Shown in pieces: positions 29,328 to 31,179 of a stretch of DNA of 64,000 bases. The stretch covers positions 1 through 64,000 of the forward strand of contig JAQTTU010000009.1 of the NCBI GenBank assembly GCA_028710605.1, written 5' to 3'. Under the pieces are notes generated by a model. That model worked only from the letters and a program-made list of their open reading frames with translations, did not search any database and had not been told where the DNA came from. The stretch comes from Sideroxydans sp. (GTDB lineage: Bacteria > Pseudomonadota > Gammaproteobacteria > Burkholderiales > Gallionellaceae). The first letter of the stretch is position 1. Every line of letters starts with the position of its first letter. The position numbers and the translations under genes were made by a program.

Positions 29328-30644
29328 GTGTCTGACCTGTTTGCTCCCAACCAACCCGCCGCTCCTCTGGCCGAGCGCCTGCGTCCAAAGCACATTGACG
29401 AAGTCATCGGGCAGTCGCATCTGCTGGGCGAGGGCAAGCCGCTGCGTCTTGCGTTTCAATCCGGCAAGCTGCATTCGATGATCCTGTGGGGGCCGCCGGG
29501 CGTGGGCAAGACCACGCTGGCGCGGCTAATGGCGAGTGCGTTCGATGCCGAGTTCGTGCCGTTGTCGGCGGTGCTGTCCGGCGTGAAAGACATTCGCGAA
29601 GCAATCGCCCAAGCTGAGCGCACACTGCAACAGAACAGTCGCCACACCATTCTGTTCGTGGATGAAGTGCACCGTTTCAACAAATCGCAACAGGACGCTT
29701 TTCTTCCATTCGTCGAGCAGGGCCTGGTCACCTTTATCGGTGCGACCACCGAGAATCCCTCGTTCGAGTTGAACAACGCGCTGCTGTCGCGGGCGCAAGT
29801 GTATGTGCTGCAATCGCTGTCCGAAGCGGAAATGGCGCAACTGTTCGGGCGCGCGCAGCAGGAAGCTTTGCCCGGCATCGCATTCGACGCGGCGGCACAG
29901 GAACGCATCATCGGCTATGCGGATGGCGACGCGCGCCGCCTGCTCAACGTGCTGGAACAATTGCAGACCGCCGCCGAAGCTGCCCACATAAGCAACATTG
30001 ACATCGCTTTTCTCGACAACACACTGGCGCAAAAACTGCGCCGTTTCGACAAAGGCGGCGAAGCGTTCTACGACCAGATCTCAGCGCTGCACAAATCGGT
30101 GCGCGGCTCCAATCCCGATGCGGCGCTGTACTGGTTCACGCGCATGCTGGACGGCGGTGCCGACCCCCGCTATCTGGCGCGGCGCATCGTGCGCATGGCG
30201 TGGGAAGACATCGGCCTCGCCGACCCGCGCGCCATCCAGTTGGTGAACGATGCCGCTGCGACCTATGAACGCCTCGGCTCGCCTGAAGGCGAACTGGCGC
30301 TGGCGCAAGCCGTGCTCTATCTCGCCGTCGCCGCCAAGTCCAACGCGGGGTACGTCGCGTATAATGCCGCCCGCGCCTTCGTCAGTCAGGACGGCTCGCG
30401 CGAAGTGCCGCTGCACTTGCGCAACGCGCCGACCAAATTGATGAAACAGTTGGACTACGGCAAAGACTACCGTTACGCGCACAACGAGGCCGACGGTTAT
30501 GCCGCAGGTGAAAATTATTTCCCCGACGGCATGCCGGAAGTGAGTTTTTATCAGCCCACCGAACGCGGGCTGGAAGCGAAGATCGCCGAGAAGCTGGCGC
30601 ATCTGCGCGAGCTGGATGAAAAGTCGAAAAGCAAAAACAATTAG
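29328..30644 (+). CDS. rarA: Replication-associated recombination protein A
   Basis: A 438-residue AAA+ ATPase of the RarA/MgsA/WRNIP1 family acting at stalled replication forks. Start GTG at 29328 gives SDLFAPNQPAAPLAERLRP, aligning with known N-termini; the frame runs further upstream through the repeat (to 29280). Walker A is WGPPGVGKTTLA, Walker B LFVDEVHRFNKSQQD, sensor 1 GATTENPSFELN. The C-terminal tetramerisation region (KSVRGSNPDAALYW) is intact. GGTGGG in the repeat end may serve as ribosome site. The stop TAG overlaps the next repeat. Confidence 0.95.
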   Translation: MSDLFAPNQPAAPLAERLRPKHIDEVIGQSHLLGEGKPLRLAFQSGKLHSMILWGPPGVGKTTLARLMASAFDAEFVPLSAVLSGVKDIREAIAQAERTLQQNSRHTILFVDEVHRFNKSQQDAFLPFVEQGLVTFIGATTENPSFELNNALLSRAQVYVLQSLSEAEMAQLFGRAQQEALPGIAFDAAAQERIIGYADGDARRLLNVLEQLQTAAEAAHISNIDIAFLDNTLAQKLRRFDKGGEAFYDQISALHKSVRGSNPDAALYWFTRMLDGGADPRYLARRIVRMAWEDIGLADPRAIQLVNDAAATYERLGSPEGELALAQAVLYLAVAAKSNAGYVAYNAARAFVSQDGSREVPLHLRNAPTKLMKQLDYGKDYRYAHNEADGYAAGENYFPDGMPEVSFYQPTERGLEAKIAEKLAHLRELDEKSKSKNN

Positions 30645-30676
30645 CCACAGAGAACACAGAGGTCACAGAGAAAACC
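30643..30676. repeat. CACAGAG repeat, left arm before the GxxExxY gene
   Basis: AGCCACAGAGAACACAGAGG then TCACAGAGAAAACC. It directly abuts the GTG start of the next gene; the matching right arm is at 31032-31063. Together they bracket the gene. Confidence 0.9.
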
Positions 30677-31042
30677 GTGGCAGATCAACTGACTGAGAAA
30701 ATAATTGCGGCGGCGATTGAAGTTCACAAAACGCTCGGCCCGGGATTATTGGAGTCGATCTATGAAGAAGCGCTGTGTATTGAATTGGAGTTGATGGGGC
30801 TGGCTTTCCAAAGACAGTTGGCGGTAGATGTGATTTACAAAGGGCATGCAATCCAAGGACAACGGCTGGATTTATTGGTCGCAGATGAAGTCGTCGTGGA
30901 AATTAAATCTTTGCGAACTCTTCCTGAAGTTGCCACTGCACAGTTACTTTCCTACCTGAGAGCAACCGGGTTGAAGCGTGGACTTTTATTAAATTTTGGA
31001 GAAAAGCAGATGGTCAGTGGAGTAAAGCGAATTTCTCTGTGA
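30677..31042 (+). CDS. GxxExxY protein (PD-(D/E)XK nuclease-like) between repeat arms
   Basis: A 121-residue protein of the GxxExxY family. The name motif is GPGLLESIYEEAL at about residues 21-33. RLDLLVADEVVVEIKS at about 63-78 carries the D...E-x-K pattern of PD-(D/E)XK nuclease folds, and RATGLKRGLLLNFG is the usual last motif. Biochemical role is not established in this family as far as I know. The start is GTG at 30677, immediately after one CACAGAG arm. The last residues and stop (ISL, TGA) lie within the opposite arm. Its 3' end plus arm is repeated at 31100-31179. This looks like cargo, or possibly the agent, of the repeat element. Confidence 0.85.
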   Translation: MADQLTEKIIAAAIEVHKTLGPGLLESIYEEALCIELELMGLAFQRQLAVDVIYKGHAIQGQRLDLLVADEVVVEIKSLRTLPEVATAQLLSYLRATGLKRGLLLNFGEKQMVSGVKRISL

Positions 31043-31179
31043 ACTCTGTGTTCTCTGTGGCTAGATAGTTTTTGACTTTACAATAAGAAAGCTGCCGCTG
31101 AATTTCGAGGAAAGCAAATGCTCAGTAGAGAAAAGCGAATTTCTCTGTGATCTCTGTGGCTAAATAGATTTTGACTTTG
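30991..31179. repeat. Tandem partial duplication of the GxxExxY 3' end and right arm
   Basis: Segment 30991-31080 (AAATTTTGGAGAAAAGCAGA onward) is repeated, diverged and with about 9 bases lost, at 31100-31179 (GAATTTCGAGGAAAGCAAAT onward). Both copies run through AAAGCGAATTTCTCTGTGA, the arm, and on to TTTTGACTTT. The second copy is therefore a remnant of another gene-plus-arm unit. Confidence 0.85.
31032..31063. repeat. CACAGAG repeat, right arm after the GxxExxY gene
   Basis: TTTCTCTGTGAACTCTGTGT then TCTCTGTGGCTA. It contains the stop codon of the GxxExxY gene and is complementary to the arm at 30643-30676. Confidence 0.9.

Follow-up and report, generated by a model that had tools for sequence, protein, structure and literature searches.

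RAYT genes, which encode REP-associated tyrosine transposases, are flanked by inverted repeats, the phylogenies of the repetitive extragenic palindromic (REP) sequences and of the proteins match, and copy numbers are reported for the cognate repeats (PMC2817692). Miniature inverted-repeat transposable elements (MITEs) of DDE insertion sequences are short gene-less intergenic elements with inverted ends and a candidate autonomous partner. A further system to be considered is the homing endonuclease, a small nuclease gene in an element that fills gaps empty in relatives. Here, we analyze the first 64,000 nucleotides of the forward strand of contig JAQTTU010000009.1 (Sideroxydans sp., family Gallionellaceae, GenBank assembly GCA_028710605.1), hereafter the window, in which a gene of the GxxExxY family lies between two inverted arms of CACAGAG heptamers and other pairs of such arms enclose no gene. 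The comparisons below strongly support a connection between gene and arms, and they suggest that the GxxExxY protein recognises the repeats and helps to maintain them.

The locus resembles the REP/REPIN-RAYT systems in that the gene stands between two inverted cognate repeats, although here the arrangement is less strict and not universal, in that there are many gene-less paired copies with more cognate copies where the gene is present, and in that the phylogenies of repeat and protein agree. The components differ. RAYTs are HUH/Y1 proteins (PF01797), whereas GxxExxY is a PD-(D/E)XK protein (PF13366) with no Y1 match; a REP is a small tagged palindrome, whereas the GxxExxY arms are tandem heptamers whose linkers agree between the arms no better than chance; and the GxxExxY gene occurs in loci of 19 phyla, including two archaeal loci. 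With MITEs the elements share their shortness, inverted ends, intergenic position and candidate autonomous partner; unlike in DDE/MITE systems, the gene between the arms encodes a PD-(D/E)XK protein and the unit has no DDE transposase, no target-site duplication was read, the ends are tandem heptamers, and the gene-less copies share little internal sequence. Homing endonucleases, which the locus resembles in its small nuclease gene and in the gaps empty in relatives, differ in that GxxExxY-type copies lie at many unrelated sites, with the conservation in the element ends and not in a flanking target. By analogy, the best reading would be a REP/RAYT-like arrangement made from an unrelated nuclease and unrelated repeats.

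The GxxExxY gene of the window sits between genes read as rarA and serS (these names, and lolA, ftsK, sdhA and sdhB below, come from reading of the translations rather than from a search). The first-pass annotation had placed it between two CACAGAG arms, with its last codons and stop inside the right one, and both statements are borne out: an inverted repeat of 41 nt (positions 30633-30673 and 31032-31072, 88% complementary) is formed by the two arms, with three heptamers each, the left-arm units stop 6 bp ahead of the start codon, and the right-arm units cover the gene end (Table 1).

To see how general the flanking arms are, we built a profile from 13 family members, retrieved 80 loci with it from genomes of Bacteria and Archaea (19 phyla), and counted as arms an inverted match with a Smith-Waterman score of at least 13 between the 120 bp on either side of a gene. 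Arms are found at 52 of 78 GxxExxY genes (77 multi-phylum loci and one viral-contig locus, L113; L095, L097 and L109 of 81 were dropped because the flank was too short), compared with 8 of the 262 neighbouring genes used as controls (or 5 of 178 when only controls shorter than 900 bp are counted) and with 5 of 597 positions drawn at random from these loci. A search of viral contigs with the alignment gave one locus, and a scan of them with a single protein was unproductive. Left and right flanks from mismatched pairs reach the threshold in 128 of 920 cases. Three of the eight arm-positive controls are themselves GxxExxY genes, and without these the comparison is 52/78 against 5/259. The enrichment that the first-pass annotation proposed as a check is thus present, and arms are neither rare at GxxExxY genes nor equally common around other small genes. 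When 27 of the multi-phylum genomes were searched for all GxxExxY genes, 57 of 80 unselected paralogs had arms (110 of 122 places read, with 12 short fragments left out and 3 of the 110 lacking enough flank; the selected gene of genome G160 counts as armless in this survey, its arms lying farther out). A later search of 398 genomes of the phylum gave arms at 49 of 74 new non-redundant genes, after 6 of 80 proteins were dropped as near-duplicates; this set is less diverse than the first, with 45 of the 65 matching genomes from one family (f39), and 44 of its 49 proteins with arms enter the unit table. Within the family to which the window belongs, the gene is present in 43 of 150 genomes, and 37 of 51 loci read have an exact unit of one listed type on both sides, with unlisted types seen by eye at several of the other 14 (CGCCAAG, CACGGATGA, ACAGGATGA).

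The arms are placed close to the gene, the left one ending a median of 17 bp before the residue-3 codon and the right one starting a median of 3 bp past the stop, with the stop or last codons covered in 13 of 51 cases. At some loci (L019/L149, L032 and L129/L163) the stop codon has only a degenerate right arm, and just past it lies a complete gene-less CACAGAG element instead. In the stretch read downstream of the gene at L119 (genome G098), 16 or more CTCTGTG units make up the right arm, and unit number can therefore grow by tandem expansion.

An arm normally consists of two or three heptamers of the general form C-R-C-N-R-A-N at a spacing of 8 or 9 bp, inverted across the gene. The heptamers read include CACAGAG, CGCAGAG, CGCGGAG, CACGGAG, CGCCAAG, CGCAAAG, CACGAAG, CACGAAA, CACAGAT, CGCAGAT and CACGGAT, with CAGGAA and ACAGGAT as outliers, and paralogs within one genome often have different units. 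With arm classes assigned by eye and not blind, here and in the family copy-number test below, and at some loci from an exact unit on one side only, arm class changes 21 times on the protein tree (65 rows), against 43.7 when shuffled (minimum 36). For the 51 rows carrying both labels, arm class requires 19 changes (33.0 when shuffled, with a minimum of 26); for host phylum the count is 32 (38.3 when shuffled, with a minimum of 33). The phylum of the host carries signal too, but arm class tracks the protein more closely. A Mantel test over 53 loci, which like the unit-based residue tests is independent of the hand-assigned classes, gives r=0.33 (0/5000). The covariation of arm subtype with protein phylogeny that had been proposed as a check is therefore positive by tree and Mantel test, and also by residue-base tests.

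The residue-base tests point to a specific rule. In a non-redundant set of 112 proteins, each with four or more readable units, Thr6 occurs with G at heptamer position 5 in 68/68 cases and A5 occurs with Thr6 in 0/34. When correlated change was tested along the tree, the Thr6/G5 pair has a likelihood ratio (LR) of 58.3, and the next of the 40 tested pairs 27.8, the 40 pairs being preselected by mutual information and the p values uncorrected for that choice. Independent pairs on well-supported branches number only four, with a mean of 3.1 in the same direction and none opposite. The Thr6 prediction was written down ahead of the 398-genome search, and in this held-out set Thr6 goes with G5 in 11/11 and A5 with Thr6 in 0/21 (Fisher p=2e-4, uncorrected for relatedness). 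Ser6 allows either base (9 A, 10 G). For residue 24, Leu goes with G7 in 32/33 and Phe with non-G in 10/10 proteins of the new set; in the first set, though, G7 accompanies Phe in 7 of 42 proteins, and the trait seldom changes on the tree (LR 11.4). The Thr6 rule is the same from right-arm units alone, and it holds where codon 7 starts with a base other than G, which speaks for a cause at the protein level. As the right-arm units suffice and the residue-6 codon lies outside the arm in the window, DNA-level overlap was rejected as the whole cause of the rule.

Copy number of the heptamers follows the resident gene. The window has 51 copies of CTCTGTG, where 100 shuffles give a mean of 5.1 and at most 11, and the genome as a whole has 403 CACAGAG-N1-3-CACAGAG matches against 31 for a reversed-pattern control. 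Across 146 family genomes (G048, G096, G108 and G130, with unread fragments, were left out), the median number of paired matches is 64 for CACAGAG in 16 genomes with a CACAGAG-armed gene, 25 for CGCAGATT in 10 genomes with a CGCAGATT-armed gene, 13 for CGCGGAG in 5 genomes with a CGCGGAG-armed gene and 75 for CACGAAR in 11 genomes with a CACGAAR-armed gene; in the 107 genomes without the gene the medians are 1, 0, 0 and 1, in the same order. Within-genus permutation of the labels reaches the observed value in 0/5000 cases, and likewise 0/5000 when only gene-bearing genomes are permuted. The gene's own arms add about four matches; after their subtraction one genome each of three types is left with 0 or 1, and the remaining cognate genomes keep 5 or more. 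Among the 27 multi-phylum genomes, CGCMAAG matches number 34-226 in the 7 that have a matching gene, and the 20 lacking one mostly have 0-17 (p=5e-4). The exceptions among the 20 have 43, 46 and 364 matches, and the genome with 43 has CGCCAAG arms beyond the flanks scored. Separation is weaker for CACAGAG, at 4-373 versus 0-52 (p=0.005). These counts support the proposal of the first-pass annotation that the gene is the autonomous partner of the gene-less copies. The window's own genome has two GxxExxY genes, one of the 9-bp CACAGAG kind and one of the CGCAGATT kind; the 8-bp-period CACAGAG elements starting at 18190, 22956, 28459 and 29195 of the window are orphans.

The window protein matches TIGR04256 (GxxExxY) at 138.8 bits (cut-off 35) and PF13366 (PDDEXK_3) at 140.1 bits (cut-off 22); no other family, and hence no Y1/HUH domain, is matched at an E value of 0.001, and a sequence search of the Protein Data Bank gave no match at E 0.1. 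E26, D65, E75 and K77 are invariant in all 82 aligned rows, with Q89 and Y93 nearly so. The resulting residue order, D-ExK-QxxxY, is as in the RecB, Cas4 and lambda-exonuclease group, and the D-x9-ExK spacing is that of lambda exonuclease. An AlphaFold2 model made with the 82 rows has a predicted local distance difference test score of 95.1 and a predicted template modeling (TM) score of 0.88. Its nearest Foldseek matches, all with a TM score of about 0.4-0.5, are Cas4 SSO0001, LHK and lambda exonuclease, AdnAB and MGME1; the first eight include 4ic1, 3syy, 6m9k and 6ppj, with 4ic1 the best (E 4e-4, TM about 0.5). By this model, GxxExxY is predicted to be a minimal RecB/Cas4/lambda-exonuclease-like fold with invariant catalytic residues. 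PADLOC gave a single marginal match, to Cas4b (E=0.007). Cas4 has four cysteines for an iron-sulphur cluster; GxxExxY differs in its length of only 121 amino acids and its single cysteine, and it therefore has no four-cysteine iron-sulphur site of the Cas4 type. Where the gene is inherited in place, purifying selection is strong, with a median ratio of non-synonymous to synonymous substitution rates (dN/dS) of 0.049 between rarA and serS (27 of 36 pairs with finite dS) and 0.082 between sdhB and sdhA (11 of 15 pairs); broken GxxExxY copies are also present, despite this selection.

The gene-less elements of the window are listed in Table 1. Together with 17 stretches taken from the first listed places in the genome, the window gives a sample of 28 elements, including the gene-bearing one. 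The period of the left and right arms agrees in 28/28, with 18 elements of 9 bp and 10 of 8 bp. Linkers agree between the two arms in 18/36 (expected 18.0) and 8/32 (expected 10.0) cases in the 9-bp-period elements and in 7/10 (expected 5.0, p=0.2) in the 8-bp-period elements. The loops of the 27 gene-less elements are 18-118 nt long, and only 8 of 351 loop pairs score above the shuffled maximum, three of them forming one trio. Because the periods agree, the linkers are at chance and the loops are mostly unrelated, what the elements conserve is the heptamer together with its spacing. As the linkers of the two arms do not match, it is apparently the heptamers that are read and not a perfect hairpin. 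The earlier suggestion that the protein acts on hairpin arms thus finds no support in the linkers, which do not agree beyond chance, though the arms can fold. A perfect hairpin was accordingly rejected as the selected feature, the linkers agreeing no better than chance at the 9-bp period and hardly better at the 8-bp period. Three short elements folded as single strands pair far better than their shuffles, and a hairpin may for this reason have a role alongside the heptamers. We also rejected the idea that gene-less copies are deletion derivatives of the gene: three loops reached 11.5-13 against it in a comparison with no null and with faulty stripping of the arms. Rfam gave no match over positions 17000-45000 of the window.

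Table 1 Gene, arms and heptamer elements of the window (positions in nucleotides)
Feature	Position	Strand	Remarks
Gene-less element	18190..18264		CACAGAG arms, 8-bp period
Gene-less element	20272..20345		CACAGAG arms, 9-bp period, class of the gene's own arms
Gene-less element	21245..21436		CACAGAG; left side longer and disrupted
Gene-less element	22956..23031		8-bp period
Gene-less element	28459..28547		8-bp period, ftsK-lolA gap
Gene-less element	29195..29315		8-bp period, lolA-rarA gap
Left arm	30641..30670	+	TTAGC, then three CACAGAG heptamers at a 9-bp period (30646, 30655, 30664)
GxxExxY gene	30677..31042	+	PD-(D/E)XK, 121 amino acids, GTG start; translation, TIGR04256/PF13366 matches, alignment, model
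Right arm	31035..31059	-	Three CTCTGTG units (31035, 31044, 31053), sharing bases with last codons and stop
Diverged tandem copy	31103..31178	+	Gene 3' end, right arm (two units), serS leader
Gene-less element	43133..43285		9-bp period
Solitary right arm	44285..44309	-	9-bp period

The first-pass annotation had also described a second copy of the gene end and right arm and proposed that the two move or duplicate as one unit. The diverged copy is real, with 56 nt matching at 88% (30995-31050 and 31103-31158, spacing 108 bp) and 36 nt at 92% (31044-31079 and 31143-31178, spacing 99 bp); from these spacings the second copy has two arm units, not three. It is not seen in the six other congeneric elements read between rarA and serS. 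Because its flank is the serS leader and the six elements have no such copy, it is most simply read as a lineage-specific local tandem duplication, and as a sign of movement it was rejected. GxxExxY fragments with only the C-terminal part recur in other genomes (G015, G096, G130, G149, G153 and G161) and recall this copy.

Near-empty counterparts of gaps occupied in the window are found in congeners. Between rarA and serS, 7 of the 29 readable loci of the genus (the window included) have a GxxExxY element, with gaps of 446-593 bp, and 9 have only 8-35 bp; one has another gene, one retains a piece of right arm next to a different palindromic element, and 11 have other palindromic elements by eye. 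These last (for example GTAGGTCGGGTTA... and GTAGGGTGGG...) are at L137, L138, L142, L144, L145, L148, L151, L157, L159, L160 and L162, and there is no GxxExxY element at these loci. The lolA-rarA gap is at most 14 bp in 18 of 25 other loci, and no CACAGAG element was found in the 25 read (five long gaps shown in part), nor in the ftsK-lolA gap of 20 other loci (one gap shown in part). Where the window has its gene-less CACAGAG element in the lolA-rarA gap, L151 and L154 have a RAYT-type gene; the L151 protein matches PF01797 (Y1_Tnp), and that of L154 is called by likeness of the translation only. In the ftsK-lolA gap, L154 (genome G093) has a gene-less element of the CACGAAA type in place of the CACAGAG one, and the same genome also has a GxxExxY gene of the CACGAAA type (L121). 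Downstream of serS in the window, at 32545-33022 and 34595-35885, are several small gene pairs that look toxin-antitoxin-like by eye and that we take to be RelE/ParE-like and BrnT-like.

The lines of evidence given by sequence are flanking arms, lineage-specific heptamers, cognate copy number, covariation, purifying selection and near-empty sites in congeners. From these we infer binding, cleavage and mobilisation. We consider it probable, though well short of certain, that gene and arms form one unit whose nuclease recognises the arms and serves the gene-less copies in trans. On this account the protein would read the heptamer, with residue 6 tracking base 5 and residue 24 tracking base 7, and the stationary nuclease gene would lie inside a pair of its own recognition arms. 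In trans, it would act at the same heptamers elsewhere, most likely by cutting or nicking at the arms, and would thereby maintain and spread, in intergenic gaps, short copies that lack the gene and consist of two arms with a loop of about 20-120 nt, a role like the one proposed for RAYT nucleases and REP sequences. Spreading would presumably go through host repair or replication; to our knowledge, a PD-(D/E)XK enzyme acting alone is not known to join strands.

Several observations weigh against such a unit acting in trans. About one third of the genes are armless at the threshold used (26/78, 23/80 and 25/74), Bacteroidota are the main exception among phyla with arms at 2 of 11, and neither of the two archaeal loci, both from one phylum, has arms at this threshold. 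Phage records gave no member of the GxxExxY family, and plasmid records very few (7 of 72,556). No GxxExxY gene with matching arms was found in the genome with 364 CGCMAAG matches, and the window's own genome has 8-bp CACAGAG elements and 18 CGCGGAG matches without a cognate gene. No target-site duplication was read, the ends in near-empty gaps not being placeable to the base, and copying of whole elements is not evident because the loops are mostly unrelated. Inheritance in place under strong purifying selection at two sites is unneeded for a merely selfish element. Finally, of all places tested, the coding stretch at residues 6-7 ranks second in raw likeness to the arm word of its locus, with 3.44 of 7 compared with 3.14 when shuffled (z 5.1), with three other places higher in z and one higher in raw likeness. 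Because the coding heptamer resembles the arm word in this way, a DNA-level effect may have a share in the Thr6 rule.

Some of the same evidence could be read differently. If binding of the protein to the arms serves to regulate the GxxExxY gene itself, the dispersed copies having otherwise arisen and acting as decoys or regulatory sites, then arms that abut the gene, the left ending before the start and the right beginning near or overlapping the stop, are natural, residue-base covariation requires binding only, and strong purifying selection on the gene fits as well. We regard such an operator as unlikely, given that many gene-less copies with the resident gene's heptamer are not expected of it and that the catalytic residues are invariant in 82 rows. 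It is quite improbable that an unrelated transposase moves the arms with GxxExxY as frequent cargo: the freely varying loops and the heptamers that are abundant without a matching gene, as in the 364-match genome and the orphans of the window's genome, would suit a passenger, but arms seldom enclose the neighbouring genes, heptamers differ between paralogs of a single genome, and the residue-base rule also speaks against it. A role in control or defence, in which the nuclease restrains the repeats or guards against heptamer DNA and the arms are marks rather than mobile ends, draws on the nearness of the fold to Cas4, lambda exonuclease and AdnAB, on the marginal PADLOC match and on a dN/dS near 0.05; copy number is higher, not lower, with the cognate gene, and this role appears very unlikely.

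A wider form of the preferred reading, of a unit serving its copies in trans, is that GxxExxY proteins are widespread sequence-specific minimal nucleases with a residue-to-base code (6 to base 5, 24 to base 7) and heptamer-array elements of their own, working by PD-(D/E)XK hydrolysis alone. We hold this only tentatively, at somewhat less than an even chance; it would make them a mobile or domesticated genome-repeat system of many bacterial phyla without a transposase, integrase or reverse transcriptase of its own. In the literature searched, coverage of which is partial (most subscription journals and bioRxiv lie outside), GxxExxY has only passing mentions and a prior description is possible; no paper with the heptamer or peptide strings was found within that coverage, nor any on the subject among the titles listed, and a term search of a review of prokaryotic MITEs (PMC10969869) found neither GxxExxY nor nuclease. 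With such coverage, this is weak evidence of novelty.

In that literature GxxExxY is an annotated family without a stated role, and in the genomes examined heptamer arrays are abundant without an assigned owner. The tie between gene and repeat, if true, would explain both the family and the arrays. It would be the second instance of a nuclease gene that stays in place alongside a population of cognate repeats, built from parts unrelated to RAYT and REP, and it would give a compact nuclease family whose specificity could perhaps be read from sequence.

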